DNA from: Brachionus manjavacas
Taxonomy: Eukaryota > Rotifera > Eurotatoria > Ploima > Brachionidae
Direction: 5' to 3'
Length of the DNA stretch: 64,000 bases
Assembly: GCA_019054805.1 (NCBI GenBank)
Contig: JAHQIY010000004.1
Coordinates: 5,270,001 to 5,334,000, forward strand
The notes under the pieces were generated by a model, which was not told where the DNA came from, ran no database searches, and was given only the letters and a program-made list of their open reading frames with translations. The position numbers and the translations under genes are program-made. Position 1 is the stretch's first letter; every line of letters starts with the position of its first letter. Positions 2,323 to 51,800 of the stretch are shown here, piece after piece.

Positions 2323-4600
2323 ATGAAAATTTCTATCAGAGAATTGAAAAAATATTTTGTAGAAAAGTTTAGCAATAATAATGTCAAAGATCGATGGGAT
2401 TATTTTTATTTTTACGAGTCAGAAAATTCAAATCTAACAAATCAATTAGTATTTAATTTAAAAAATTTATATCCTAGTGTTTCTAAGAGTTTTTTGAAAG
2501 GAACTAGAGGGATATCTGTGTTTGCATAGACGAAATTATAAGACTATTCTAGTTGATGAAACGGGTTGGATTTACGTTGAATTTCTAGATTCAAACTCTA
2601 AAGACCATTCAAAAGTATGCAGTTCTCATTTTCTTAGTCGGTTTGCTCTCAAGTCGTTCAATTTGTTTTATGAACATTTTGTTTTTAAAACCAAAAATAA
2701 CAACAAAAAATGTGAAAAATATTTTTTATACATTCAAACCGATTTGGTTTCAAGCGAAATCAGAAAATTAAATTGGTCAGAAATCGAATCAATGCAAATA
2801 AGCTGCGAAGAATCTCGTATATTTTTTCTAATTACCCAAGAATTGGTAAAGACATTTGCTTGCGATGCAAAATCGTGCGTAGTTTCAAATAAAGCAAATA
2901 ATGACCAAACTACAAAATACACTGATGAAGAGTTTCGGTATATTTTCAAAGTTCTAAACAAAGGACCAGTTCACTCTTTGGCAAATTCTCAATTTAAAAG
3001 CAAGCTTAGATGTGATATATGCATAGAAATAGCTCCTTTTATTGAAAAAAAATCGAATCAGTCAGCTAAATTAATTATCAGTTTTTGTAGTAAATTTTTA
3101 TTCCACATCAATATTTTACACTCGGATAAAATTTACTTGCTTAAAACTGACAAAGAATTGGAAATTTTTAGTTTGAACAAGAGCACATCTTATCAAGCGG
3201 AACCAGCACTAATTTTTTTTCAAAATTCTTTCAAAATAATTGAAGAATTTACAAACCCCTGGGATTCGAGTATATTTTTTGGTGTCAAAAATCCCACCAA
3301 AAGTCATGCATTGCAAGGCGATTTTTTGAATTCAATGAAAGCTACTTTGATCGAAAAAAAACTAGTTCCTAGTTTTTTTCAACCAGAAAATGATTTTGAT
3401 GATATTCTAGTCAAGCATTATGATTTAATCTTACCAAATAAACAATTTAAACTGGTGGTAAAGACACTTGATACAAATGAAACTGTCTCAATATTTTTCG
3501 ATACTCGATTCTCGATTTTTCCACTTTGTATTCTACCAGGAATTGAAATTGAAATCACTGATTTGATTAGAAAAGGAGATGGAGTTTTTAAGTCAAATTG
3601 TGCTTTGAAGCCTATGTCGCCACAAAGCTTTGATTTATTGAATCCAAAAAAAGACTTAGCATCCTCAACCAAAGAGAACTCTACTAAGAAAAAATCACTG
3701 ATTGATAGTCTGACTGAATTGGACTATTCATTTAGTTCTTTTTATGATTTAAATCATATACAAAAAAGAGAACAAAAAGAGCAAATTTTAAATTTTAGAT
3801 TATTGTTTCAAAATTCCGAATTTTGCCAAGAACAATGTGGCAGCTTTGTCAGAATATATGGTCAAATTGTAAAAATCTATGAGCTCAATTTAAGATTAAG
3901 ATGCAAAATTTGTTCAAGTTTAATTAGTTCATGTATTTGTAGCTCGAAAACTACAGATAAAAAAATGGACTTAGAATTTTCAACTTGTTTATTAGTTGAT
4001 GATCATAGTTCGATTGTTAAACTTTGTTACTCTAATTCAAGTGTCGATCTAAAATCGAAACAATCCAATTTTTTCCATTCAATATCAGGTTTTTTGCATG
4101 ATATTCTTAATAGTCTAAACGAGATTAAAATGATTCCAGTTCCCGTTCACTTAAGTGCCGGTGAATGCAACCCAAATGAGCTTGATCGATCTGCCAAAAT
4201 TTATCAAATTATAAAAGAAAAGTTAGTCAATGAATATGGGTGTTTGGCTGATCGAACAAATACTGAATCGAATCGAACAATAAATAGCTCTATCCTAAAT
4301 TCAACATTGAATGCACAAGACTCCAGTTACATATTTGAGAATGTGGTCAAATTGGATATCTATAAAACTTTATACGATTATTTAAATTTTACCATTGTGG
4401 ATAAGCATTTTTTATTTTATATTGATGTCAATAACTTGCATAACATGAAAGAAATCGGAACTAGTTTTGAAAAAAAATCAGGAGATAATCACAAATTTTT
4501 TAAAATAGGCGATTTGTGCTGCAATGAACAATTTAAGTCAATTTTAAATTTAAAATGTTCTAAGTTTTTACCTGTTGAGATTGAGCTAACAGATTTTTAA
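2323..4600 (+). CDS. OB-fold / zinc-ribbon protein, possibly CTC1-like telomere protein (frame break inside)
   Basis: Two long open frames together encode about 760 residues. The first (2323-2529) starts MKISIRELKKYF. The second continues one frame over to the stop at 4598-4600, and is open from about 2498. In the C-terminal half (about 3840-4050) a strand-rich segment, FVRIYGQIVKIYELNLRL, runs into a CxxC...CxC zinc-ribbon (CKIC...SCIC) and then a strand reading STCLLVDDHSSIVKL. This is the look of an OB-fold with an inserted zinc ribbon, as in RPA1- and CTC1-type ssDNA-binding proteins. No catalytic motif is visible. CTC1 is the CST-complex subunit that binds telomeric ssDNA; SHLD2 and other RPA-like proteins are alternatives. 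I found no splice pair of sensible length that joins the two frames, so an unusual intron, a frameshift, a sequencing error or a decaying gene are all possible. Confidence 0.4.
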
Positions 4601-19705: not shown

Positions 19706-22700
19706 ATGTATTACATTGTAGCCAGGTTAATTTTGAATTGATTCTTATCACAGAGGATTATTTTTTTTGTTAAGGCCAAGGTCTAGCGCATCAGGTGGGC
19801 TGAGCGGATTTTCTGTTGGATTTGCGATACTAGCAATTCTTGGCGCGATTCTTATTATAGGAGGAATTGTAGCGCTTGCTCTTATACCACTTTACATTAG
19901 CAATGATGATAGTTCTACTACAACAACTCAATCTACTGCTGTTACAACTCAATCGACTGCTGCCAATAATCAATCAACAGTATCGCCAACTGAAGAAACT
20001 GTCGAAACATTGGTTATGGATAATGTAGCTGAAGTAGACGTAACAGCAAGAAGAACTATAGTAAACGGATTTAATGTTACTGAGATGACGAATTTTGTAA
20101 TATATTTGATTTTTTTAATATTTATAAGCTGAAAAAGTTGAAAATTTATTCTTAAAAAGATTAGAACTTTAGTCATAGAAATCGAATCAGAAGCCAATAT
20201 TACATTCAATAGTTCTAGGTAATTTATTGAAACTGGTAGTTAATTAGTTGAATATTTTTAAAAACAATATAAAAGTAAATTTGTAAATATGATTGTTTCT
20301 AATCGGTATTCAGACATCAATTCTACTGCGGATTATAAAAGAATATTAGAAAAAATTAACACAAGCGCTTCTGATATTGAAGATAAAGCTCCTAATACTA
20401 CGGTAGATGTTTTTAAAATATCAATAAGAAGTAAAATGTTTGAAAATAAACAAATTTTTTTTAAATTAAATAAAATTAAGGAGAAAGAGAAAAAAAATAT
20501 GAATTAAGTGGTTCTTCAGTAACAGAGACCGAATTTTGTGAAATTTTTTTTATTGAGGGTAGAGAAGATTGCGTTAAATCACTGACTTATGCAAATGGAA
20601 CAACAATCTCAACGAGTTATAATAATACTGTACCACCTTTTACTGAGGGTAATTAACTTTTTTATTTTTAAAAACTATTTTATACTTAATATTTAAAAAA
20701 TGAATAATTTCCAAGGTTCAATTACAGCAACAATATCATCCGAAAAATTTGAGTTAAATTTTACATCAAGCTCATCAGTTTCTGTGGACAACACCACGTC
20801 AGACACAAATTTGACATTGACAAGTATTTTTGTTTCAAACGAAACAATTAATGCCACAAATCCTACAGTTGTGACAGATTCAACAGTCAACGTCACTTTA
20901 AACACTGAAGAAATTTTAAATGTAACAGATAACCAAATTAATACCACCAAAAGTATCATTGATACTACAGCAGCGATAAATATGACAGAAAGTACTAATT
21001 CAACAATAAATGAAACATCAGCGATCCAAGTAGTTGAAACAGCTGAATTCCAAGGTTTGGCCGAAGTTGAAGAAACTCAAAATTCAAGATCCATTATGGC
21101 AGGAAATTTAGACATTTCCAATATGATAAACCAAGTATCTATTCTATTAAAAATATTTATTTTTAAGTTTAATCTAAAAACTTGTCACTAAAAAGCTGAG
21201 AAATATATTTCTTTTTATAGAACCAAAAGCAAATGTAAATTTTAGCACAGAAAAGTAAGTCAGAATAAACATTAAATTAAAATTGAACAACTCAATTAAA
21301 AAAAAAAGTATTGGAGGAACAAAGTATCGAATTGATGCAATAATAATAAATATCTTTACCGATGATACTTCAACGATTAATATTAACGGAATTGTAGCAA
21401 AATTAGAAACAGATAAAGATCAAGTTAAAAACGCAAAACCAGAAAACTCAAGTGCTTCCGTAAATATAAGAGAAATAAAGTTAAGAAGTAAAGATTAATA
21501 ACCAATAATTTTTGAAAAAAAATAAAAGAAAAAAAGGAAATAGAAAAAAAGAAACAAATGAAGAGAATCAAACAATAAAGGAAGACGAAAATTGTGAAAT
21601 TGACATATTCAGTGGCATAGGAAATTGCTCGAAAACGTTGACTATAATTGATGAAAATGGCAACACAGAAATCGTAACAGAAACGTTAATAGCAACAAAT
21701 AATCCATTCACTCAAGGTAAGGACAAATATAATTCTAAATAAAAATACTGAAAAAATTATCTCAGCATCAACTGACGTATCAACAGAAACAGAAAAAATT
21801 GAAAGTTCAACTTCATCAGGATCAACTGATGGTTCTTTTTCACCAGGGTCAACTGATGGTTCTTCTTCCCAAGGTTCAACTGCTGGTTCTTCTTCATCAG
21901 GATCAACTGATTCTTCAACTTCAGCAGGATCAACAGATGTTTCTTCTTCACCAGGATCAACTGAAGGTTCTTCCTCATCAGGTTCATCAGATGCATCAAC
22001 TTTATCAGGATCAACTGATGGTTCTACTTCATCAGGATCAACTGATTCTTCAACATCAGCAGGATCGACTGATGTTTCTTCTTCACCAGAATCAACTGAT
22101 GGTTCTTCTTCATCAGGAACAACTGATGGCTCTTCCTCATCCGGTTCATCAGATGCCTCAACTTCATCTGGATCAACTGAAGGTTCTTCTACATTAGGGT
22201 CAACTGATGGTTCTTCTTCCCAAGGTTCAACTGCTGGTTCTTCTTCATCAGGATCAACTGATTCTTCAACTTCAGCAGGATCAACAGATGTTTCTTCTTC
22301 ACCAGGATCAACTGAAGGTTCTTCCTCATCAGGTTCATCAGATGCATCAACTTTATCAGGATCAACTGATGGTTCTACTTCATCAGGATCAACTGATGTT
22401 TCTTCTTCATCAGGATTAACTGATGGTTCTTCTTCATCAGGATCAACTGATTCTTCAACATCAGCAGGATCGACTGATGTTTCTTCTTCACCAGAATCAA
22501 CTGATGGTTCTTCTTCATCAGGAACAACTGATGGTTCTTCATCATCAGTTTCATCAGATGCTTCAACTTCATCTGGATCAACTGATGGTTCTTCTACATT
22601 AGGGTCAACTGATTCTTCAACATCAGCAGGATCGACTGATGTTTCTTCTTCACCAGAATCAACTGATGGTTCTTCTTCAGCAGGATCAACTGATGGCTCT

Positions 22701-24197
22701 TCCTCATCAGGTTCATCAGATGCCTCAACTTCATCAGGTTCATCAGATGCCTCAACTTCATCTGCATCAACTGATGGTTCTTCTTCATCAGGATCAACGG
22801 ATGGTTCTTCATCATCAGTTTCATCAGATGCTTCAACTTCATCTGGATCAACTGATGGTTCTTCTTCATCAGTTTCAAGTGATGGTTCTTCTTCAACTGG
22901 GTCAACTGAAGGTTCTTCTATATCGGGATCAACGGATGGTTCTTCATCATCAGTTTCATCAGATGCTTCAACTTCATCAGGTTCATCAGATGCCTCAACT
23001 TCATCTGCATCAACTGATGGTTCTTCTTCATCAGGATCAAGTGATGGTTCTTCTTCATCAGGTTCAAGTGATGGTTCTTCTTCAACTGGGTCAACTGATG
23101 GTTTTTCGTCAACTGGATCAACTGATGCTTCAACTTCATCAGGATCAAATGATGGTTCTTCTTCATCAGTTTCAAGTGATGGTTCTTCTTCAACTGGGTC
23201 AACTGAAGGTTCTTCTATATCGGGATCAACGGATGGTTCTTCATCATCAGTTTCATCAGATGCTTCAACTTCATCTGGATCAACTGATGGTTCTTCTACA
23301 TTAGGGTCAACTGATTCTTCAACATCAGCAGGATCGACTGATGTTTCTTCTTCACCAGAATCAACTGATGGTTCTTCTTCAGCAGGATCAACTGATGGCT
23401 CTTCCTCATCAGGTTCATCAGATGCCTCAACTTCATCAGGTTCATCAGATGCCTCAACTTCATCTGCATCAACTGATGGTTCTTCTTCATCAGGATCAAC
23501 GGATGGTTCTTCATCATCAGTTTCATCAGATGCTTCAACTTCATCTGGATCAACTGATGGTTCTTCTTCATCAGGTTCAAGTGATGGTTCTTCTTCAACT
23601 GGGTCAACTGAAGGTTCTTCTATATCGGGATCAACGGATGGTTCTTCATCATCAGTTTCATCAGATGCTTCAACTTCATCAGGTTCATCAGATGCCTCAA
23701 CTTCATCTGCATCAACTGATGGTTCTTCTTCATCAGGATCAAGTGATGGTTCTTCTTCATCAGGTTCAAGTGATGGTTCTTCTTCAACTGGGTCAACTGA
23801 TGGTTTTTCGTCAACTGGATCAACTGATGGTTCTTCTTCATCAGGATCATCAGATGCCTCAACTTCATCTGGATCAACTGATGGTTCTTCTTCATCAGGT
23901 TCAAGTGATGGTTCTTCTTCAACTGGGTCAACTGAAGGTTCTTCTATATCGGGATCAACGGATGGTTCTTCATCATCAGTTTCATCAGATGCTTCACTTT
24001 CATCAGGTTCATCAGATGCCTCAACTTCATCTGGATCAACTGATGGTTCTTCTTCAACTGGGTCAACTGATGGTTTATCGTCATCTGGATTAACTGATGG
24101 TTCTTCTTCATCAGGATCAACTGATAGTTCTTCTTCATCAGGTTCATCAGATTCCTCAACTTCATCAGTAACAAGTGATTCTTCAACTTCATTATGA
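19706..24197 (+). CDS. Membrane-anchored mucin-like protein with duplicated extracellular modules and a Ser/Thr/Gly repeat tail
   Basis: Ten exons join in phase: 19706-19725, 19775-20096, 20160-20218, 20276-20430, 20481-20648, 20716-21134, 21196-21254, 21309-21487, 21537-21716 and 21766-24197. They give 1330 residues. A short N-terminal tail MYYIVARPRSS precedes one hydrophobic span (about residues 20-50, ending LALIPLYIS), so it is likely a type II or signal-anchor protein. Then come Thr/Ser-rich stretches with many N-x-S/T sites and two copies of an unrecognised module. Each copy has a conserved strand (IESEANITF / IEPKANVNF), then CEIFF...C-x-K-S-L-T or CEIDI...C-S-K-T-L-T, ending PFT-x-G. 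The last exon encodes about 809 residues of SGSTDGSSS-type repeats, expected to be heavily O-glycosylated. It may act in a surface coat, mucus, cuticle or adhesive. I do not recognise the module family. Confidence 0.72.
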
Positions 24198-24240
24198 TCA
24201 ACTAATGGTTCTTCTTCGTCACGGTCAACTGATAGTTCTG
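21800..24240 (+). repeat. 27-bp coding tandem repeat with 351- and 702-bp higher-order copies
   Basis: The basic unit is about 27 bp, for example TCAGGATCAACTGATGGTTC plus TTCTTCA, encoding SGSTDGSSS-like nonapeptides with G/A/V/L/P variants. The variant string around TCTTCTTCCC recurs at 21861 and 22212 (351 bp apart, 13 units). The string CTTCTACATT recurs at 22591 and 23293 (702 bp apart, 26 units). The repeat is open in several frames on both strands, which creates spurious antisense open frames; those are not genes. Confidence 0.92.
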
Positions 24241-24441
24241 ATTCCTAATGATGAACTTATTCTAATTTAGTTACTGTTTTTCATTTTTATTTTTAACGTT
24301 TCAGTATAATATCTTTCTCTGATTCTTCAAGACTTTTTTTTAGCATTTCTATTTTTTATTTTCATAATATTTTTAAATAAATTAACATATTATTTAACAT
24401 CTTTATTTTTTAATTTCTTTTTTTTCATTTTTGATTTGTTT
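24198..24441. other. Short gap between mucin-like gene and CDC7
   Basis: The repeat continues for another 17 codons past the stop to a second stop near 24248. The rest is AT-rich and must contain the 3' UTR of one gene and the promoter of the next. Confidence 0.5.
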
Positions 24442-28506: not shown

Positions 28507-31500
28507 ATGATAGATCAAGATTTTAATAATAACCAAGAATCTGATGGCAAAAATTCAACAAGAAACTATCCCATCCCAAACCAGGCTTTATCAGACGATT
28601 TTCAAGTTCAAATCAGCAAAGATCTTATAAAATCAGATTCATCATCACTTCCTGAAGAACTTCAATGCTTGGGAGTCAAATGCTTTAACGAAAATGATTT
28701 TGAAAAAGGCGTTCTTTTGCAAGTAGACTTGAAAATCGCCGAGTACGAGCTTGAACAAGCTAAAAAAAACTCCAATTATGCAGGCTCTTCTAACCCAGAG
28801 CCATTGAAGCGTAAAAGTGGCCAAATATCCACATGCAATGATGAGAAACTGATCGAAAAGCAAGCAGCATTAGAATCCAAATTGAAAGATTATAGCCTGT
28901 ACCTGAATGGTGAATCAATCGAAGACTCTTCTGATTCCAACTGTGGTCTTGAAGAAAAAATCAAAAGTGGAGAGATCACACCATTTGCGAGTCTTCTTGG
29001 CAAAAAATCTCAAAACTTGCATACACCAAATCAGAGAGACAAAAAAAACAAAATAAGCACCTCATTTTCTTCTAATGATTTTGACTCATTTCTGCTCGAT
29101 TTGGACAAGAAAAAATCTGATTCTGTTTTGAAAAATAAAAAAAAATTGGAAGAGATCAAGGCGAAAAATTTGGCCGAAGAAATAAAAAAAAAAGAAGAAG
29201 CTAAAAATTACAGAGTTACAGACAAAACAGACTTTGATTTGTTTCTGACCGATTTGGATCAAAAACCAAAGGCCAAAAAAATTAAATCTACTAACAAACC
29301 AAAAAAGACACATGCTTCCAAAAAGATTGACGCCAAAAAAAGTTCACTAGACCAATCTATCATTGAGGAACAATTAGCCGAATGTGATAGATTTTTTGAT
29401 GAATTTAATTCATACAAAAAAATAAAGAGAACAGAGTCAAATTTGGAAGATTTGCTGCCTGTAGGTGAAGATGAGCCCAAAGTCGACAAAATATCCTTCA
29501 TGAAATTGATCGAGGACAGCGATAATGATGATGAAATTGAGCCCAAAAAAGATTTAAATCTCAACGCTATTAAGAAAGCTCAACGAAAAATCAAGAACAA
29601 ACCTACTAGTAAAGAACTAAATGCGTTTGATTATGAAGAATTGGAGTTTGACGATCAATTGAAAGATCCGGATTATGATGAGATTAGCGAGAAATCTGAG
29701 GGTAGCAGTGTGGAGTACGACACTGAAGAAGAATCGCCAGTAAAAGTCTTAGAAAAAGCAAAAAAGAAAAAAAAACTAAAAAGGTCTTGCATGGATGATG
29801 GCGATGAAGATGTTTATTTGGAAAGATTAGCCAAACTAGAAAAATACGAAACACTGCTAAGGCAAAAAGAAGAAAATGAAGACTTTGATTTTGCGGATGA
29901 TATTGATATTAATGAGGACACTGTTTTTAATAATAAAATGGTTGTAAATAATGGAAAAGAGTTTGAATTTGAAACAGGACTCAAAGTTCCCAAACAAATT
30001 TGGAGTAAATTATACGAATTTCAAAAGACTGGCGTCAAATGGCTATGGGAACTTCATTTACAAAAATGTGGAGGAATTTTAGGTTTTTATATTTTTTATG
30101 ATTTTTTCTTTTAATTTCCTTCATGACCCATCACCAAGTTTTTACCACATGACAATTTTAATTCAAAAACAATTTCATTCTTACTTTAGTAATTTAAAAA
30201 TGTCTACTCACTCTAAAAACTTATGAGTTCTTTTATTTCCGTAATTTTCCGTTATTTCATTTTTGTTGAATGCTGTTTGGATTTTTTAAAACTCGTATCA
30301 AATTAACATCGTTGATGCTTTAGTTCTTATAAATCTAAAAAGTTCCAGCAATTGATTATTATCGATAGTAAAAGGACTGGTGAAGTCATTTTGATCAATT
30401 TGAATGTTAAAAAAAATGCGCTGAGGTGAAGTTAGGAGCATAAAAATTAAAGAAAAGCAAAAAATTTTTTTAATTAAAATTTAATATGATAATTTTATGG
30501 ATAGACGATGAGCTTGAATTTTATCCTAAAAATTCTTTTATGTCCTTTAGTGTCCTTTACTATGTGTTCATAATATTTTGTCCTTTTGTGTCCTTTCCTT
30601 ATCAAAGAATTAAATATTGTTAAATTTGAAAGAATTAATTTTTTGTAATTTTTTAATTTTGTTTTTATAAAAAAAAAATTATTCTTGATTAAAGAGTATC
30701 TAAATAAAAAATCATTTTAATTTTACTTTAAGATTTTTGGACAAAAAAAAGTTTTTTTAAAATCTGAGATAAGTAAAAGGGGTCCGGGGCGTAGCCCTAG
30801 TTTAGGGATCCGGCTATGCATAATTATTGAGAAAATTTTAGAATGTTTTTTAAATTTATAATTACTTACTGTAAATTTTAAAAATTTTAATTAATTTTCT
30901 TTCTTTATTTAAAAAACAGTATCGAGAATTTCAAATTTAAATATAATAATAATTAAAAAAATTTAAGAAATGTAATTAATTGAATAGTTGGATAGTTATT
31001 CTTTATTAATTAAAAGGACACAAAAGGACACAAAAGAATAATTAGCTATAAAAACACGCTCATTGTCTATAGCTCGATAATTTTGAGTATTTTTACCAAA
31101 CAAAATTATAAATTCAGAAAAAGCCAAAAAAACTTAAAATTGAGTACCGTTTCTATCAATATTCGATTAGTCGTTCAAAATATAAAGGATTTTTTTAATT
31201 TTTTGCTTTTAATTACGTTTAACAAATGTTTTTAAATCTCAAACATTTTTCTTAAAAATTTTTGCAAATAATTGTAAAAAAAATAGTTTTCAAATTAATA
31301 AAAATTATAAAACAGTTTTTGCTCCATACTTCACCACGTTACCACTGCTAAAAACGGCACAAATTAAGATTGTGTTTATAATTTATTAAATTTTAAAAAT
31401 TTTAAATGTAATAAATTAATTTAAATGAAAAGTTGAAGTTTAATTTTTTAGTTTATTTGGATATTTTTTTTTAATCGCTGACAATCTATATAATTAATTT

Positions 31501-34074
31501 CGTAAAATATCAATAAAATAATTTTGTAAATATTTTAATTTCTTATTTGATAAGAGAAATTGTGATTTTTGAGATTCAAGCTAATTATTTAACGATAATT
31601 AACAAGACGGTGGTACTCATTTTTCTTACACTAAAGATCCTGCTAAAACACTGACCCCCAATTTTTACAAATCAAAAATACCTTTTAAGTTTTAAAATAA
31701 CATTTAATTTAAAAATTTACTGTAATTTATGAATACCATACTAATTTTTTTCAAGTTTTTCTGCGAAAATTTAATTTTTTATTTTTAAAATTTTTTAAAT
31801 TTTCACATTAATTTTTTAAAAATAAAAGGAGACGAAATGGGCCTAGGAAAGACTATACAACTAATATCTTACCTCGCTTCACTCAGATACAGTAAATTAA
31901 AAACAGAAAGCTCAAATTATTCCGGTCTGGGTCCCGTATTAATAATTGCGCCAGTTACTTTAATTGCTCAATGGGTTGAGTCATTTCATACGTGGTGGCC
32001 TTATTTTAGAATTTGCGTTCTCCATGAAATTGGCACTTATCAAAATTCATCTAAATCCCGGCTAATAGACGAGGCTTTTTTGTCCAACGGAATTTTATTG
32101 ACCACATACTCAAGTCTAATCATTTACGATAGGGAATTGATTTCAAGAAATTGGCATTACATTATTTTGGATGAAGGCCACAAGATTCGAAATCCGGACG
32201 CCAAGATAACCATAGTGGCAAAATGCTTCCGAACTCCGCACAGAATCATTCTCAGTGGATCGCCAATTCAGAACAACCTGAAAGAACTTTGGTCTTTATT
32301 TGATTTTATATTTCCTGGCAAATTGGGAACTCTTCCTGTTTTTATGGAAAATTTTTCGGTGCCTATTATCCAAGGTGGTTATTCAAATGCTTCTGATCTT
32401 CAAATTCAAACAGCTTACCGCTGTGCATCCATACTAAAGGATACAATCATGCCTTACTTATTACGCCGAGTAAAAAATGATGTTAAAATGTCTCTAAAAT
32501 TACCAAACAAAAACGAACAGGTGCTTTTTTGTCGCTTCAGTCGGGAACAAAAAGAAGAATATGTTCGCTATTTGAAATCTCGTGAGTGCAAATATGTCCT
32601 CAAGTCCCGTAACAATGTTTTCAAAGCATTGATACATTTGAGAAAAATATGCAATCATGTTGATCTGGTTTCTGATCAATATTACAAAAATCCTCACTGG
32701 TCAGCGGATTATTTTGGTGACGATCTGAAAAAAGCAGGTTTCAGCGGATTCTACAAGCGCTCTGGCAAAATGATTGTTGTTGACACCCTGCTAAAATTGT
32801 GGAAGAAACAAGATGGTAGAGTTCTAATTTTTTCTCAAAGCAGAGCAATGCTAGACATCTTGGAGAGCTTTATTGCTGAACAGAATTACACATATAGGCG
32901 AATGGATGGATCCACATCTGCGGTCACAAGGTCTAATTTGGTAAATGAATTCAACAGCAACGAAAATATATTCATTTTTTTGCTGACCACAAAAGTTGGC
33001 GGTCTCGGACTAAATTTGATCGGAGCGAACAAAATAATCATTTTTGATCCGGACTGGAATCCGACTAATGACTTGCAGGCCAGAGAAAGGTCATGGCGAA
33101 TTGGTCAGACGAAAAATGTCACCATTTTTCGCCTATTGACCGCAGGCACAATAGAAGAGAAAATTTACCATAGACAAATATTCAAACAATTCCTAAGTAA
33201 CCGGGTTCTCAAAGATCCGAAGCAAAAGCGTTTCTTCAAAACAAATGACTTACACGAATTGTTCGCGTTTACATCAGTGGACGAAAAGTCTACAGAAACA
33301 AGTGCGCTTTTTGCCGGCACTGGTTCTGAGATAAACTTGAAGCGCAAAAAACTCGAGGGAAATTATGTACCTCACTTGGATAGAATAAAAAAGACCAAAA
33401 ATAAAAATGAGAAAAAAGAAAGAGATAAAAGTGGTGATGACTACGTTTTGTGTAAATTGTTCAAAGCGAAGAAAAAAGTAGGAGGACAATCGGCGATTCA
33501 TACGGCAGTACAGCATGATATGATCATTGAAAATTCCGATCAAGACTTTGTTTTGCTAGAAGTTGAAGCGGAGCGGGTCGCAACTGAGGCAGTCAGAGCG
33601 CTCAAAGAGTCAAGAAAATACTGCAAACCAGCTGAGACTGGAATTCCAAATTTGAACGGAATAAAATTTGGCGTAAAAGCAAAGATACCGGATCAAGCTG
33701 AAAACAAGTCCACAGGCTCAAAATCATTGTTGGAAAGAATTAAAATGAGAAATCAAGGAATTAGAGCAGATGAATCCAAGCCCGATGGTGATAAAGATGC
33801 TAGAACAGATCGCTTGATTATTCCTGACTCGACAAATCCGGTGGAAAGAACTCTAAACATGTCCAAGTTAATTATTAAATATTTAACTCAGCATGTTGAT
33901 ACATTTAACAAAGCATCTAGTCTGCAAATAGCGCATTATTTCAACGATAAATTAAATAAGAGTGATTCGATACGGTTCAAGACTGTTTTGAAAGAAATTT
34001 GTGAATTTAAAAGAGATTTGAAAACAAATAATGGCTATTGGAGTTTGAAAGAAGAATATTTAGATTTTTATTAA
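28507..34074 (+). CDS. ERCC6: ERCC6 / CSB, SWI2/SNF2 ATPase of transcription-coupled repair
   Basis: Two exons, 28507-30082 and 31829-34074, give 1273 residues (human 1493). The junction restores [15 protein letters not shown]. The N-terminal half is acidic and lysine-rich with several likely nuclear localisation patches. The ATPase core starts near LYEFQKTGVKWLWELH. Walker A (GLGKT) falls at about residues 530-534, motif II DEGH at 640-643, then LSGSPIQNNLKELWSLFDFIFPG, LIFSQSRAMLDILE, and motif VI ERSWRIGQ. The pattern is CSB-specific within Snf2 proteins (DEGHKIRNP, TFHTWWP-like block). It remodels stalled RNA polymerase II at DNA lesions. The C terminus, with a basic stretch and a final helical segment (HYFNDKL), fits the winged-helix/ubiquitin-binding end of CSB. 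The single intron is 1746 bp, and its 3' part is duplicated downstream. Confidence 0.95.
30500..31071. mobile_element. Miniature inverted-repeat element in ERCC6 intron
   Basis: The outer arms ATAGACGATGAGCTTG (30501) and, inverted, ATAGACAATGAGCGTG (ending near 31070) match for about 60 bp inward. They include the internal direct repeats TGTCCTTT-AGTGTCCTTT on the left and their inverse AAAGGACACAAAAGGACACA on the right. The centre holds a GC-rich patch GGGTCCGGGGCGTAGCCC. It has no coding capacity and I cannot assign a superfamily. Confidence 0.6.
31417..32034 (+). repeat. Source copy of a 0.62-kb duplication (ERCC6 intron end plus exon 2 start)
   Basis: This span covers 412 bp of the intron's 3' end and the first 206 bp of exon 2. 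It recurs at 34081-34699 with, by eye, only two differences: one T inserted in a T-run before the splice acceptor, and a T-to-C at TTATTTTAGAATTTG. Confidence 0.9.
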
Positions 34075-34080
34075 ATTTTC

Positions 34081-34740
34081 TAATTTAAATGAAAAGTTGA
34101 AGTTTAATTTTTTAGTTTATTTGGATATTTTTTTTTAATCGCTGACAATCTATATAATTAATTTCGTAAAATATCAATAAAATAATTTTGTAAATATTTT
34201 AATTTCTTATTTGATAAGAGAAATTGTGATTTTTGAGATTCAAGCTAATTATTTAACGATAATTAACAAGACGGTGGTACTCATTTTTCTTACACTAAAG
34301 ATCCTGCTAAAACACTGACCCCCAATTTTTACAAATCAAAAATACCTTTTAAGTTTTAAAATAACATTTAATTTAAAAATTTACTGTAATTTATGAATAC
34401 CATACTAATTTTTTTCAAGTTTTTCTGCGAAAATTTAATTTTTTATTTTTAAAATTTTTTTAAATTTTCACATTAATTTTTTAAAAATAAAAGGAGACGA
34501 AATGGGCCTAGGAAAGACTATACAACTAATATCTTACCTCGCTTCACTCAGATACAGTAAATTAAAAACAGAAAGCTCAAATTATTCCGGTCTGGGTCCC
34601 GTATTAATAATTGCGCCAGTTACTTTAATTGCTCAATGGGTTGAGTCATTTCATACGTGGTGGCCTTATTTCAGAATTTGCGTTCTCCATGAAATTGGCT
34701 TCATCAAGATGGATCTAATTGAATTTTTTGTTTTTTAAAA
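34081..34740 (+). pseudogene. Truncated duplicate of ERCC6 exon 2
   Basis: The copy starts six bases after the ERCC6 stop codon. It carries the intron acceptor and the ATPase start [16 protein letters not shown] through VLHEIG, then diverges into unrelated sequence and stops after about 12 residues. It lacks all motifs beyond Walker Ia, so it cannot encode an active ATPase. Near identity with the source copy argues for a very recent event or an assembly error. Confidence 0.9.
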
Positions 34741-35625: not shown

Positions 35626-36246
35626 AAAAGCACAAAAACCATGCTTGACTCGCATTTTGTGATTAACTGTTCGTTTACAAATTGTAAAAGCTACCAGTTC
35701 TGGTTTTGGGTACGAAATTGGGTGCTGAAAAACAGCATAGGAATTATATTCATCGTAATTAGAAAACTTAGAAATTAATTCGAATGAATCAACAAGCAGT
35801 GCTTTTAAAACAGAAGGAATCTTGCGATAAAGAAAGCTTGTTGAGAAATTCTTACAAAATGCTCAAAAAAATAGCGTATGATTTTTCTCGAAGCAGAGAT
35901 CCAAAAATTTAACATTATGTTTTGGAGAAAAAGATGCAACTAATTTGATTCATTTTAACTTTAATTTAAAAAAAAAATCTCTTTGTTATTTTGAAGAAAT
36001 TCAAAATTTGATGCTCAATATTAATTAGCTGATATAAAAATAACTGAACAAAAACTAATTATTTTTGTTTCTACTTCATAAAAGCTATAATTATCTTTAA
36101 CTAATAAATTAATTAACTAGATATAAATTTTAAAAATTGTATATTTATTCAATCTTTTATTTTAACTATTTATAGGTTTCACTTTATAGAATTTATTGAA
36201 CAATTAAAACCTATGAGAAGTAATCAAAATCAATTTTAATACTTTT

Positions 36247-36712
36247 TTAGTTTGGTTTGGCCCAGTCTTTGAAGTTTAAATCAAATATATAACAATTTTT
36301 ATTTACTTATCCCTAGATTAGTTAATTGTGAATGAATCACGCATCCTTAAAGATCGTGAATCTACAGATAGAATGGTAAATGAATCGTAAATAACTAATA
36401 ACACATGTCAAATAATTAAGAAGTGAATATCATATTTTGATAAATCACTTCTTAATATAAAAAATTAAAAAAAAAATATTATCAAAATATCAAGCTCTAG
36501 GTTACTTTAGCTTATAAAAAACCTTAATTTCAAAAGTTTCAAAAATCTAATTATAAATTTTGATTTTAAAGTAAGGCTAGGGTTGTATAAGGACCTATTA
36601 TGATGCTATTTATTATCCTCATTTTTATCGAAATTATCGAACAATCATTACTAATTCTTTGTTGAGTTTCGTTTGTCCCAGTCTTTGAAGTTTAAATCAA
36701 TTATAAAACAAT
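36247..36712. repeat. Direct-repeat pair upstream of the RdRP fusion gene
   Basis: A segment containing CCCAGTCTTTGAAGTTTAAA then TCAA occurs near 36260-36290 and again near 36675-36705, about 413 bp apart, with similar flanks (TTTGGTTTGGCCC / TTTCGTTTGTCCC). Function unknown. Confidence 0.6.
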
Positions 36713-36815
36713 ATATTTTATTTTGAGTTTTTTTGGTCAGGACTCACTTTGTTCTAAACCTAACTTTAAGCTATAATTTTTTGATATTTTTTTCCTAACG
36801 CTGTTGAATGTAGAT

Positions 36816-37013: not shown

Positions 37014-37201
37014 CATCATTTTTAACAAATTTTTTCTGCAACTTTAAAAAATTTGTTAAATTAGTCTAAAACTTTAATTGGATAGTTTTAATTTTAAATT
37101 TAGACATTGTTGATTTAAATATAAACATAAGCACTTTTTTGATCTTAATTTAGCTTATTTAATTTAATTTTATTTTAGAATTTTTTTAATTTAACAAAAA
37201 A

Positions 37202-40200
37202 ATGCCAAAACTAGAAATATTTTGCAGAAGTTGTGACAAAAAGTTCGCCGATAATACCATTGTTGCATTTTACCAGCAATCGTTGAACCCGTCTATTCAT
37301 CTTGTGATAAAGCCTGAAGACATGAACAATGCGCTTGGCCATTTAACAATTAAGGAACAAACTGAAAAAAAGAAGAAAAAGTTTGCACCAGAGATAATAT
37401 TTTGTAAAAAATGTGATATCAAAATCGGCTCGAAAGCAAATATTGGTCCTGAAGATCGGCCAGTTTTGTGCCTAAGAGCCGAATCTATTTATTTTATTGA
37501 TACGGGGTCGAATATTCGATCCGATTTTAACTTTCAATCAAAATGGGTTCATCTAAAAAATAATTTTCCAATGATAGAATTCAGAACTTATTCAAATTTT
37601 GATGGGAACTCAAATATGAACTCTGTAAACCGTGTAAATTTTACGCAAACAGTGTTACCACAACAAATTGACATTTCTAATTTCAATATTAATCTTTATG
37701 TATCTGATATTCCAAGGACATATCAAATAGAACTATTCGTAAAAGCATTGCTGCATAATTCAATAGTCTATTTGCCTACTGGTTCTGGCAAAACAATGGT
37801 AGCGGCAATGGTCATTTCTTTCATGAAGCGACTGAATCCCAAAAAGAAAATTTTTTTCGTAACAGACCGAATACCTTTGGTCTTTCAGCAAGCCTCCTAT
37901 CTCAGATATCAATGTGACTTGTCTGCTGGAGAATTTTGTGGCGAAAATAAAGCTCTTTTTGAAAGTCAATTAGACTGTGACATCTTTGTTCTAACAGCTG
38001 GCTTTTTGGTAAATATGCTTCTGTTGAACAAACTCTACCTGGAAGATTGTTCGTGTTTAATCATTGATGAAATACATCACGCTAAAAATAATCATCATTT
38101 TTCACAAATAATCGAGAAATTTTTCCAAAAAATTGACCACAAATACAAGCCTCGAATTCTTGGGTGTAAAATAAATAAAAAGTTTTAAATAAATTTTTAA
38201 TTGTTTCTGTTTAAGTGACAGCATCTCCCACCTCGAATGCTCAAAGCAGGAGCAACATGCTTCAAGAGATTGAGCGCTTATGCAAACTTATTGATGGCAC
38301 AATCATAATGCCGGTCTTGTATCGCCACGATTTTGAAAATTTTGTCAATAGGCCTCATGTTAGTTTTTTTGCAGCTCATGAACATCCCAATGAAGCTGCT
38401 TTATGCTGCCAAATAAATAGCTTTATTGTTCCGTTTATGAAACAGCTAAATTCTGCGATTGACTTTGATTCTTCGATTAACATTAAGAACAACGCTTTGA
38501 GAAGCTATCTTCGTAATTTGATCAAAGATTTTAACATCCATCAAAATTTTAAGCAGCTTCAAATTACCAATTTCTTGCAGATGATCTTAAGTGCGGCCGA
38601 GATCATGGAAATTTTTGGTACCAAAAGATCTGTCGAGTTTCTCAAAGAAAAAATTCAACTTGAATTCGAAAAAAATCAAAAAAATCGAATTTGGTCTGAA
38701 ATGGATATAAAAAACATGAAAATTTTTTTAGATAAAATATTTTATTTAGACGGAAATTCAGCAAAATTAGATGTTTTAAATCAACTACTTTTAGATACTG
38801 CTGATAGAAGTGCTGACTCAAGAATACTTATATTTGTTAGATCGCGGAAAACTGCTAAGTTGTTAAATGATCATTTAAATAATAATGTCGAAATAAGGAA
38901 GCTTTGGAAGCCAAAGTATTGTGTGGGACAAGCTTGCGGAGGCATTGATGGGATGACATGGAATGAAGATCAAGAGCCTATAATTGAAAGCTTCAATCAG
39001 GGCCAATGTAAATTACTGGTAGCGACAAGTGTGCTTCAGGAAGGTCTTGATGTCCAAATATGCAACAAGGTGATCATATTTGACACATTGTGGAATCTAA
39101 CCCAATTTGTCCAGAGCCGTGGAAGAGCCAGACACCAAAATTCCCAATTTATAATCATTGATTCCCTAAAACATAAGAATACTTATAATAAACTGGTTGA
39201 GTCTGAGAGAGTTTTGATTGATCTAGTAAATAGTTTACGTCAAGAAAATTCATATTCTGTCCGTGATTTGATAGTTAAGCAAACAAGTTTAATTACACCT
39301 AAAGTTCCGCGCATGACTGAGCTTTGCTATCGTAAGAATCGAAAATTTCGATTTACTCTGCAAATTTATTTAATATTCGGTCAGTTTAGTGATTTATTTA
39401 ATTCTCTGAAGCAATGTAAGGGGTTTATGCAGTGCGAACCGGCCACCAATAGCTACAAAGGAGCCAACCTGTTCCATGAATTTGAATGCTACAATGCTTT
39501 GTTTGAAATTAATCGCGGAAAACAGCAAGAAGAAGAATCATGGAATGTACTCAACAATATCAGATTTATTTTGTCTTCCCAATTAATCGAGTGTATAATA
39601 TACAATTTTAAATCCGATTCCAATCAGGCATCGTCTAATTTTCAATGTTTATGTGAGAGCATAGAACTTGGCAATTTGAGTGCACCCAATGAATTTTACA
39701 AAAATTCAAAATTAAAAAGATCCAAGCTGATTGTAGACTTTCAACTGAGAGCAATCAAAATTTTGACATTTATCAACTCAAAATTATACAAGCTAGAATT
39801 TCCATTTGACGCCATTGATCACTTGATAAGCTGTGATTGCATGGAAGAACGTGTTTACGTCTACTTTCCGTTCAAACAGGCTCCATTTGTTTTCACTGAT
39901 ACTCAAAATAGTGATTTCAATGAGGAAAATTTGAAAAATTTAAGCGAAGAATATTTGCCTTGGGATCGAAATTATCTCAAAATGACCAATTTGACTCTAA
40001 AAATGGAATTTTTAAATACGGAAAAAAAATATTTGATTGAAGCGCTGAAGAATTTAAAAGGAAACAATTTATTTTTTTGCAATGTAGAAAATAAATGTGC
40101 CACATATTCAGTCGAGGACCTTCGGAGCGATTTTAAGCATAGAAATTTTAATACCTGCTATTTTCTAGAAGTTTTTATCAGTCAAAATTATTATCTGTTG

Positions 40201-43200
40201 GAAGGAAAAATAAGTCAAAATTTTACCACAACATTGAACTGCTTATCTTCATTTGAATGTGAAAAAACCCTTGAATGTCTTAATACTACTCTTCAAACAA
40301 AACGATTTTTAAACATTGATCAATTGCTGGAAGAAATAATTTCCAATGAATCCAAATTTTCAGAGTCAACAGATTTGTTTGAAAAAAATTGGAAAATATC
40401 TTTGTTTCGACGAGCTACGGTAACTCCTAGCAGAGTAATTTTCTATTTTCCAGAGCCGAATTTGTCCAACCGAGTTACCCGTGAATTTGGTGAAGACAAT
40501 TTTATAAGAATTCGTTTTAGGGACGAGAACTTGCGCAAATTAAACATGTTCTACAAATACTCGGACATGAACAGCATTTATTTGAGAATTGAAAATTTTT
40601 TAAACAGAGGTTTGACTTTATTTGGACGAAAGTATGATTTTTTGGCCATGAGCTCCAGTCAATTGAGGGAAAATGGATGCTGGTTGTTTAACAGTTCGCA
40701 TTTGAGTCCTGACCATGTTAGATCTTGGATGGGAGATTTCAAAAATATTAGATGCATTGGCAAGTATGCCGCCAGACTTGGACAAAGCTTGTCCAGCTCG
40801 ATAGAAACGTTTCAGTCAACAAAATTCTCAATGATTGATGACATCACTGTAGGAGACTATTGCTTCACTGATGGTATTGGGAAAATATCTGTTAAAAAGG
40901 CGGAAGAAATAAGCAAAGAGTTTTACAACAGAAAAATGGCTGCGAGTGCTTTTCAAATTCGTTTTGGTGGATTTAAGGGTGTTGTGGCTGTGGACCCGAA
41001 TCTAGAGGATCATGAGCTCCAATTTAGAGACAGTATGAGAAAATTTGAGAGTGTCTACAATCGACTGGATGTAATCAATGTCACTGACTACATACCATGT
41101 TTTTTAAATAGACAAATAATTGTAATTTTGTCTTCTCTAGGAATTGCTGACTCAGTTTTTGAAAATTTACAAGATGATATGCTAAAAACTCTTAGCAACA
41201 TGCTCATTGATAAGTTGACTGCATCGTTAAGCATTATGAAATACTATAGACCCATATTTTATGATTATAAACATTCCGAAAAGATCAATTACTGCCTTGA
41301 GCCTTTTTTCCGCGATCTTTTGAAGACCATTTATCAAAAGAGTCTTATAGGTCTCATCAAAAAATCTCGAATCTTTGTTCAAAAAGGTCGCATTTTGATG
41401 GGCACCATAGATGAAACAGGCAAATTAAATCATGATGAAGTATTTGTCCAATGTTCTAAGCAGCCAGGCGAGCTTTATGACAAAAACGAAGTTTTGTATT
41501 CAAACAATCGAAATATTGTAATAAACAAAAAGGTAGTTGTTGGCAAAAATCCATGTATGCATCCGGGAGATGTCCGTGTCCTTAAGGCTGTTGATTTACC
41601 AGAGCTAAGACACATGGTCGATTGTATAGTGTTTCCATCTGTTGGACCAAGACCCATTACAAACATGTGTTCTGGATCAGATTTGGATGGTGACTTGTAT
41701 TTTGTATCATGGGATCCAAGGTTAATTCCAGAGTTTGTCAACGAACCAATGAACTACATTTCACCAAAAGCCGCAGAAAAATACTCCGAAATTCAAATAG
41801 AAGATATAACCAAGTTTTTTGTAAATTTTATAGAAATGGACCAACTAGGTCGAATAGCAAATGCCCACGTGGCCTTATCTGACCAAAAAAAGCTAGGCGT
41901 CAAGGATCCACTGTGCATTAAACTTGCCGAAGCGTTTAGCTTAGCTGTTGATTTTCCCAAAACCGGAATTTTAGCTGAACTGCCAGACGAAATCACGAAT
42001 TTAAAATATCCGGATTTTATGGAAAAAATTGGAATGTCTTACACTTCAGAAAAAATAATCGGAAAACTTTATCGAAAGTGTAAAAAAATTTTCATCAATG
42101 ACACATTTTCCGACCAAATTTCAATGAACAAATCTCTCTTGGTCAACGGATACGAAAAATATGTGCCCAAGGCCAAAGAGATCTATTCGAAGTACAGAGC
42201 CGAACTTGAGAGAATGATGAATTTTTTCAATTGCCGTCACGAATCCGAATTATTTGTTGGAATTTTTTTAAACTCAATAAATAGCAATGAAGCTAAGGAT
42301 TTTTTTCAAGTTAGTTGTTCAATGATTAAAAAACTATGGGCACATATGAGAGAATTATTCAGAGATACTTTGAATTCAGAGGCAAAAAGCGAAAAAGAGA
42401 CTAAAATTCAAATAGCAAGTGCTTGGTACTTTGCTTGCTATTCAAATGAGGAAAATAAAAAATTGAGAATTCTGAGCTTTCCGTGGATTCTCGAAGATAT
42501 TCTCAATTTGATCGAAATTGAGGAGTATGATTTATTTTCTTACTCTATTGTGGAAAAATTTTGCCATTGCAAAAATGACTTTCAGCTAATTTCGAGGTTT
42601 ACTCAGCAACTTGATCTAAAAAAACAAATCGAATCAATAACTGGTTTAAAATGTCTGATAACTGGCTCGTTGGGGTTGTTTTTATTTGAGCAAAATATTG
42701 ATCTTCAAATTGTGGCCTTTGATTGTGACGGAAACAAGTGCCTGACTGAATCTATTGCTGAAAAGCTTGAGGAGCATTTTGACAATGTTTTTTATCATGA
42801 AAAAATGATTACATGCACCGAGTCCGACCAGCTTTCTTTCAATCTAATTGAGTCAAGGGAAATTTTGAGAAAATTTATTTTTTTGAGAAAATCTATTTTT
42901 TCAAATCCAGAGCTTCTTCCTGTTTTCTATTTTGCTGCTCATTTTGCCAGAGAAGATGATTTATTCTTGAAATTAAATCATTTTAATTTAAAATTGGATG
43001 ACTATTTGAGCTTTTTTCTAAATTATTTGACAGAAAAAAATTATGTGACTAGAGTACCAGAGTCAGAGGTAGACAATGAATTATACTCATTAAGAAATGA
43101 TGAGCATTTAAGAGATTGTTCAGAGGAATGGACTAAAATTCAGGACTATTTGGAGGATTTGCTTTATACAAATGAGAAACAAGTTGGGAATATGATCCTT

Positions 43201-44646
43201 TGTTTTTATCGAGAAATGGCCTTTGAAAAAGAAGATTTTTGTTTTCATGATTTTGAAAAAAATGACCACTTGAACGAAATTTTAAAGTGTCATTTTTACA
43301 AAGTGTTTGATCGCGTGTCAAAAACGCTTGATGTGTCCAATGTGTGGAATTCAATGCGTAAAATAGCTGATCCAGTGTTCAAACAAAGGTTCTCGTTTGC
43401 TCGAAAGAAAGGAAAATCTCCTGCCTTATTTGTAGAAAATGCCAGCCTTTTTCTATTTTCAAACTACCGAAGTGATTTTGATCTTGTTGAGTTTGAGCTG
43501 TACAAAGGCAAGAGGCGGTCTCTTCATTTATCAAAAGAATGCTTTACTGCCAAAATCAACTATCCATTGACGGATTTTACAACCGAATGCTTCAACAAAT
43601 TCTACCATCATTCGATTACTCAATTCAACAAAGCCAAGGAAATGATGTCCGATTTTAACTTTAGAATTCAGTTGAAATTTGGTGACTCATATTTTACCAA
43701 TGTTCCATCTGTTTTTGAGAATTCATCTACTCTAGTCTACAATGAACTACAAGAAGCCTTAAAAAAAGGATACAAAAAATTTCTATTTAGTTGGCTTAAA
43801 GATGAAAAAAAATCTTGCTTTACTTTGGAAAATGAATCTGAAAATGAAGAAGACGATGATATTTGTGAGCCTAAAGACAAAACGAAAAAAAAGAGGAAAA
43901 AAAAAGTAGTCCAAAAAGCAAATACTGCATTTGATTCCAATGTAAATTTTGAACTAAGCTCGTTAAATTCAATGTTCCTGGACAACGAATTCGAAAGCAA
44001 AACATCACACACCTACATTGTTTATGTCGAGCTAAAAAATCAAGATAATAAGCGAAAAAAATTCTACCGTCTAAAGTACGGATCTGATTTGGAGTTTGTT
44101 CGCATAGAGACTCTTCCTATTAAATGGTTAAACATTGACTTAAGAAATTTGATCAATAAAGCAGAAACTAGGGACATTCGGTTTAATTTAATTTCAGAAA
44201 AAATTCTGGATTTGGACAGTGAGGTTAAAAATGATGTATTTAATATAAACAAAATTATCAATGACGGGATAATTAAAATGGACAATAATGGTAACTTGAT
44301 TTTACTAGACCAATTCCGATCATCATCTCCTGTGTATGTGCGTAATTCACAATCAATCAAGTACTATGGAGGATATGAAAATTGGAAGCTTTTATTTGAT
44401 ATGACTAAAGTTGACTTGCCAGATAAGATTCCGGAAGAATTTTTCAAAAATTTCCGAATTTGTTTTAGTGATTCGAAAGAATACTCAGAACCTGATGAAA
44501 AAGGTATTTTTAATGTGAAAGCAAATCGTTCGGAAGTTAGTGTTGCTTCTAAAGTTGACGTAAATCATTTAAAACCATCAGAAATAAATGAAATGATTCT
44601 ACTTTGTTGGTCCATTATACAAGTTTTTTCCAAAATTTTGACTTAA
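37202..44646 (+). CDS. Fusion protein: RIG-I-like CTD + DExH helicase + RNA-dependent RNA polymerase + nucleotidyltransferase-like domain
   Basis: Exons 37202-38165 and 38216-44646 give 2464 residues; the 50-bp intron rejoins the helicase motif ILG-LTASP. Residues 1-130 look like the RNA-end-binding C-terminal domain of RIG-I-like receptors: C8/C11 and C68/C71 CxxC pairs, then strands ending SKWVHLKNNFPMIEF. Residues 165-660 are a Dicer/RIG-I-type helicase: PTGSGKT 192-198, DEIHH 289-293, LTASP 322-326, IFVRSR 528-533, ATSVLQEGLDV 591-601, QSRGRAR 621-627. About 1047-1690 is a QDE-1/EGO-1-type RdRP: SNRVTREFG, FTDGIGKIS, RFGGFKGVVAVDP, catalytic DLDGD 1477-1481 (nt 41680-41694). About 1795-1910 resembles Cid1-type nucleotidyltransferases: GS at 1805-1806, then DLQI at 1817-1820. 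Residues 1930-2464 are unrecognised, with an acidic/basic patch near 2195-2220. Inferred role: unwinding templates and making secondary small RNAs. No stop interrupts 6.4 kb of exon 2, so it looks functional. Confidence 0.93.
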
Positions 44647-51199: not shown

Positions 51200-51800
51200 T
51201 TAAATCCAAATTCCCAAATCTTTCTACACAAATACGGGATCTTGAGACAACATTAAATTTACCATTAAATAAATCAGTCCAAACGTAGTAATTTAGAATC
51301 ATATGATTTCTACTAAAACTCATAATTACAAATTTTCCAAAATTTAGATCCATTGACCATTCATTACGCCAACTAACTAATAATTCAATACCATGTTGAA
51401 ATAACTTAAATGATACTTTTGGATTGTTTTGATCAATAGGAAAAATATCTTGCAGTCATCAGCATAGGGTAGACTTTTACTTTTTTAGTCTAACATCTAG
51501 GCTATTAATGAAAATAGCAAATAAAAGTGGGTCGAGCACCGAGCCTTGTGGTACGCCACTTATTACTTCAAGCAATTCGGATTCTATTTCATCAAGTACA
51601 ACCCTTTGTTTACAATGAATTAGAAAAAATTCAATCCTTTTTAGTAACGAACCATTAATACCAAGATGTTTAAGTTTGAGTAAAATTTTTAAGTGATTAA
51701 CTTTATCAAAGTCTTAAGAAAAATAAAGTACATCGAATTGATTACCGAATAATATTTGATTAGCTAATATGGCATGGTATGGATGTAATTGAGATATGTC
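51200..51800 (-). mobile_element. Decayed CR1/Jockey-type LINE reverse transcriptase fragment
   Basis: On the minus strand: DFDKVNHLKILLKLKHLGIN, LLEVISGVPQGSVLDPLLFA then IFINSL, and further on DDCKIFFPIDQNN and ELLVSWRNEWSMDLNFGKF. These are RT motifs (SGVPQGSVLGPLLF, the second half of the YADD block, NxxK). At least one stop interrupts the frame. It is a different LINE family from the fragment at 50455 and lies tail-to-tail with it. Confidence 0.8.

Follow-up and report, generated by a model that had tools for sequence, protein, structure and literature searches.

The analysed window, a 64,000-nucleotide stretch of DNA with a GC content of 27.7% and genes of eukaryotic character, harbors on its plus strand a two-exon gene that joins in one reading frame a helicase of Dicer/RLR type and a cellular RdRP, both complete (Table 1). 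The start codon at 37202 lies shortly downstream of an in-frame stop (37187–37189), and joining of the two exons gives a protein of 2464 aa, with the gene ending at 44646. The first-pass annotation had described a single CDS with a 50-bp intron followed by 6.4 kb without a stop, and this gene model was confirmed, the frame being open throughout 38218–44643. The chance of an open frame of 2143 codons is ∼3e-83 under independent base frequencies. The intron splits the first codon of the helicase motif LTASP; an alternative acceptor at 38221 (intron of 56 bp) keeps the frame and loses the motif. The GC content was 12% in the intron as against 30–37% across exon 2 (200-codon bins), and no in-frame GT[AG]AG..AG segments with less than 20% GC were found within exon 2. 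Codons 600–800 of exon 2 (about 40018–40617), situated between helicase and RdRP, showed a nearly flat codon-position GC (0.32/0.30/0.31) and differed in this from the other bins, but this stretch nevertheless stays open.

Table 1. Coordinates of the exons, intron and domains of the helicase–RdRP gene in the window
Feature	Position	Strand	Remarks
Exon 1	37202..38165	+	321 codons + 1 base; encodes the zinc domain and the first helicase domain
RIG-I C-terminal-domain-like zinc domain (probable)	37214..37585, aa 5–128	+	PF11648; Cys 8/11/68/71
Helicase domain 1 (DExH; PTGSGKT, DEIHH)	37721..38143, aa 174–314	+	PF04851 E=4.1e-15, PF00270 E=1e-14
Intron	38166..38215	+	50 bp, GT-AG, phase 1, 12% GC; splice restores LTASP
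Exon 2	38216..44646	+	6.4 kb open frame including stop codon
Helicase domain 2 (Helicase_C, QSRGRAR)	38764..39129, aa 505–626	+	PF00271 E=5.5e-19
Cellular RdRP core (DGIGKIS, DLDGD)	40420..42081, aa 1057–1610	+	PF05183 E=6.1e-175
C-terminal extension, ∼706 aa past RDR2 match end	42526..44643	+	No family above cut-off

Family matches were obtained for 7 of the 10 neighbouring open frames scanned, and the animal-type neighbours comprise Hrs_helical/FYVE/VHS, RasGAP with DAB2P_C, lipase and PARG proteins. A 61-nt direct repeat with 85% identity (36243–36303 and 36659–36719) lies upstream of the gene and could be a regulatory element or a transposon remnant. Further upstream, a ∼620 bp tandem repeat (31417–32034 and 34081–34699, spaced by 2664–2665 bp) copies the start of a SNF2-family exon (31789–34071; ERCC6-like by eye) behind its stop codon. 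Its two copies are 100% identical over the first 300 nt and 94% identical over the following 290 nt, and they represent either a recent partial duplication or an assembly artefact. The window also contains a long low-complexity repeat at 21689–24244 that is open on both strands (SSGSTDGSS-like on the plus strand, acidic and PSVDPDEEE-like on the minus strand), within which the GC content is raised to 0.416 (22001–24000). In addition, an open frame of 700 aa, to which no Pfam family matched at E 0.001, is located at 2498–4597, and a minus-strand fragment at 51480–51713 resembles, by eye, a LINE-type reverse transcriptase.

The motif sets that had been claimed for the helicase and the RdRP were all located: PTGSGKT at aa 192, DEIHH at aa 289, LTASP at aa 322, QSRGRAR at aa 621, DGIGKIS at aa 1207 and DLDGD at aa 1477. 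The ResIII, DEAD, Helicase_C and RdRP matches all exceeded the curated cut-offs. Both RecA domains of the helicase are present with motifs I, II, III and VI. The top match of the joined 500-residue helicase was AncD1D2 (148.7 bits, query 4–492), which we take to be a reconstructed ancestral animal Dicer. Further matches were seen to DCL4 (135 bits), DCL1 (128 bits), Dicer-2 (113 bits), RIG-I (112.5 bits) and LGP2 (108 bits), and weaker ones to human Dicer (94 bits), a Dicer-related helicase (78 bits), DCL3 (67 bits) and Dcr-1 (45.5 bits). Judged by these similarities, the helicase is a member of the Dicer/RLR group, the scores alone being unable to tell the Dicer side from the RLR side.

The RdRP core matched PF05183 over the whole profile (1–582 of 582; 583.7 bits, above the gathering score). 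Among the best 60 of 122 PDB matches, aa 1049–1758 of the protein aligned with residues 378–1117 of plant RDR2 at 450 bits, and the core alone scored 390–400 bits against RDR2-type chains and 57–61 bits against QDE-1-type chains. The likeness to plant RDR2 is in the RdRP region, RDR2 with its 1133 residues (7eu0) being too short to hold a helicase and a ∼706-aa tail as well. The catalytic DxDGD motif is intact as DLDGD, the residues of which are reported as key, with the last Asp required for catalysis (PMC4791657). The gene thus encodes a full-length RdRP domain whose catalytic motif is preserved. As both enzymes are matched in Pfam and the PDB over the whole of their domains and lie in one frame, the single-chain arrangement proposed earlier was borne out, and the order DEAD, Helicase_C, RdRP in one protein is the layout of the helicase-fused RDRs. 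The region between helicase and RdRP core (39178–40443) gave no Pfam match; phmmer matches of this region to a carbohydrate-binding module (E=0.0094) and a V-ATPase subunit (E=0.44) were taken as chance.

Sequence analysis of the N-terminus revealed a borderline domain which is probably a RIG-I-CTD-like zinc domain. PF11648 (RIG-I_C-RD) matched the isolated 140-residue piece with E=4.6e-5 (24.0 bits, profile 2–115 of 117) and the whole of exon 1 with E=3.8e-4 (21.1 bits). Both scores fall under the gathering cut-off of 25.6 bits, but this was still the best Pfam match. The next family on the N-terminal piece, PF03226 (Yippee-Mis18), was somewhat weaker (E=3.2e-4); its fold is related to that of the RIG-I CTD. 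None of 8 Cys-preserving shuffles of the domain matched PF11648 or PF03226 at E up to 1; across all families, the strongest match to a shuffle had E=0.01. The domain carries two CxxC pairs (Cys 8 and 11, Cys 68 and 71), and the CxxC pairs of the RIG-I CTD are presumably its zinc ligands. A phmmer search of the zinc domain against the PDB gave no relative (best E=1.3), and AlphaFold2 run without an alignment returned a mean pLDDT of 34.7. The Zn-type CTD of the first-pass annotation is retained as probable, being the best match and one not reproduced by shuffling, with the reservation that it scores below the cut-off. In the RLR order the CTD comes after the helicase, whereas the CTD-like domain here precedes a helicase that starts at aa 174.

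Searches for relatives covered collections of phages, plasmids and viral and genome contigs. Scans with the RdRP core matched 1 viral-contig and 6 genome-contig stretches, none of which was confirmed; in tblastn, the phage collection yielded no match to exon 2, nor did the plasmid collection yield one to the RdRP core. Searching for D[L/F]DGD with a DNA pattern picked out 6 viral and 18 prokaryote stretches, and tblastn of the 2464-aa protein produced matches in 10 of these 24 (E up to 10). The best was a viral contig (L004) with E=0.001 and 24% identity around a DFDGD motif. Other viral contigs with DFDGD aligned to the RdRP motif region with E=0.034 (L006), 0.21 (L002) and 2.8 (L003), and one more (L001), though containing the motif, was not matched by tblastn at E up to 10. 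L002, L003, L004 and L006 were rejected as relatives of the fusion and read as distant phage polymerases sharing DxDGD, which we take to be possibly those of crAss-like phages. The absence of relatives says little, as the searched collections contain no eukaryote set.

We consider it reasonably probable that the gene encodes a helicase-fused cellular RdRP, with a RIG-I-CTD-like zinc domain in front, that serves in small-RNA amplification. The zinc domain and helicase would bind RNA ends or duplex RNA, ATP-driven movement of the helicase along the RNA would clear or present the template, and the tethered RdRP would copy it into complementary RNA for silencing. The product of the RdRP may itself be short, as are nematode 22G-RNAs, or may be dsRNA for Dicer. 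With zinc domain, helicase and RdRP tethered, one chain would therefore combine the jobs of the partners DRH-3 and EGO-1/RRF-1. A small-RNA role is likely by analogy, the same domain order being present elsewhere and Dictyostelium RrpC, itself a helicase–RdRP protein, being reported as a requirement for the 5′ spread of small RNAs (PMC3661229). Counting against this explanation are the score of the zinc domain below its cut-off together with a Yippee-type match only somewhat weaker, the lack of a relative in the collections searched, and the weak codon-position bias in one bin.

It is possible, though unlikely, that the fusion has its function outside RNAi; it could, for instance, be an antiviral polymerase and dsRNA sensor with a product that sets off a different response. 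In line with such a role, the probable RIG-I-type zinc domain and the helicase are modules used in sensing. By analogy, two reports from animals also seem to count against a straightforward function in RNAi: secondary siRNAs were not detected in Nematostella, which has such a fusion (PMC12768352), and the RdRPs of lancelets are thought to act outside RNAi (PMC6396948). The part played by Dictyostelium RrpC in small-RNA spreading speaks against this alternative, and small-RNA amplification remains the preferred role.

Somewhat doubtful, and offered as a tentative extension, is the idea of a RIG-I-gated polymerase, in which the zinc domain, moved ahead of the helicase, would recognise RNA ends and license the tethered RdRP. 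The ends so recognised could be, for example, the 5′-triphosphate products of the polymerase itself. If this were true, an animal would possess a self-reinforcing chain of sensing, unwinding and copying. In nematodes DRH-3 is a separate partner of the RdRPs; in a single protein where a RIG-I-type module and an RdRP are naturally fused, the coupling of RNA sensing, translocation and copying could be measured.

The C-terminal extension bears on a further alternative, namely, a four-part machine ending in an active Cid1-like nucleotidyltransferase (NTase). NTases carry a G–S stretch followed by DxD, with three catalytic carboxylates. A GS...DLQ stretch at aa 1804–1823 (DLQ at aa 1817) is loosely like this signature and may be what was read as Cid1-like in the first-pass annotation. 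In it the catalytic carboxylate pattern is broken: DLQ replaces DxD, so that the second carboxylate is Q, and the third position, by eye, is also Q. No NTase match was obtained for the tail in Pfam (threshold E of 10, although most matches weaker than 0.1 are discarded by HMMER), in NCBIfam at E up to 1, or in the PDB at E up to 10 (region 42298–43800). A profile built from five typed TUTase cores scored −0.2 bits against aa 1741–1990, and 28 of the 200 shuffles were listed with higher scores. With hhalign, the alignment of the TUTase profile to the GS...DLQ piece had a probability of 0.5% over 22 columns. In the control, each of the five members scored 104–118.5 bits when left out; as these members are close relatives, the profile may overlook an NTase that is very divergent. 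AlphaFold2 without an alignment gave a mean pLDDT of 34.1 for 42505–43860. A CRAL_TRIO match to the tail that scored below its cut-off (E=0.013) and a TFIIB match (E=0.14, Pfam) were taken as chance. An active NTase at the C terminus is hence quite improbable, the claimed Cid1-like domain having no family or PDB match in these searches, a profile score like that of shuffled sequence and DLQ for DxD; the ∼706 aa at the end probably have an accessory or scaffolding role, without such an activity.

That two adjacent genes were misjoined in the assembly, or read as one, is very improbable: the tandem repeat ending 2.5 kb upstream of the gene makes local assembly trouble possible, and the weak codon-position bias of one bin between helicase and RdRP would fit a join there, but the window contains no N, the frame stays open across exon 2, no repeat of at least 60 nt was found inside the gene, and helicase–RdRP fusions of the same kind are known in other organisms.

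Indeed, the central part of the finding is not new, since the fusion has been published for several lineages. Dictyostelium RrpA, RrpB and RrpC each carry a helicase and an RdRP domain (PMC3661229), and DEAD-Helicase_C-RDRP proteins are reported from peronosporomycete oomycetes, Hydra and Nematostella (PMC4791657). As described, all of these resemble the present protein in having an N-terminal DEAD helicase with Helicase_C, followed by the RdRP, in one protein. In the same source the helicase-fused RDRs fall in RDR-gamma and their helicases group, with 100% support, in a single clade separate from the Dicer helicases; its main text nowhere contains the word RIG-I (PMC4791657). The domain order had earlier been taken as undescribed, which does not hold for the helicase–RdRP fusion. 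Among the matches listed, in titles and the beginnings of abstracts, a coverage outside which most subscription papers fall, no earlier report was found of a RIG-I-CTD-like domain ahead of a helicase–RdRP. This probable domain, recognised by profile similarity, is the one element for which no earlier report was found. Provided that the host is not a cnidarian, the helicase–RdRP fusion would extend to another animal lineage. Among rotifers, a mean of 38.9 RdRP copies is reported for bdelloids and 2.5 for monogononts, in a paper whose main text does not contain the word helicase (PMC7943196). For B. calyciflorus a GC content of 25.6% is tabulated, and a monogonont rotifer as host of the present gene is a guess. 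The lancelet RdRP BL02069 is similarly described as an animal cellular RdRP that shares its chain with another known domain; this domain is AAA_12 and not a Dicer/RIG-I helicase, and the word helicase is absent from the main text of the report (PMC6396948).

Two systems in which the partners are separate proteins had been put forward as parallels. In S. pombe, Rdp1 is reported to work with Hrr1 and Cid12 (PMC3380556), which is alike in that an RdRP works with a helicase. The RDRC analogy fails at the helicase, since Hrr1 is given as the orthologue of ZNFX-1 (PMC9276528) and the helicase here is of Dicer/RIG-I type; moreover, no counterpart of the nucleotidyltransferase Cid12 was detected here. 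The comparison with C. elegans is apt, and a better one than Hrr1, as DRH-3 is of RIG-I/Dicer type and is described as a core component of nematode RdRP complexes. A RIG-I/Dicer-type helicase with a CTD works there with the cellular RdRPs EGO-1 and RRF-1. The CTD lies behind the helicase in DRH-3 and likewise in DRH-1 (aa 885–1014), whereas the CTD-like domain lies before it here, and the helicase and RdRP that are separate proteins in C. elegans are here encoded in one chain.
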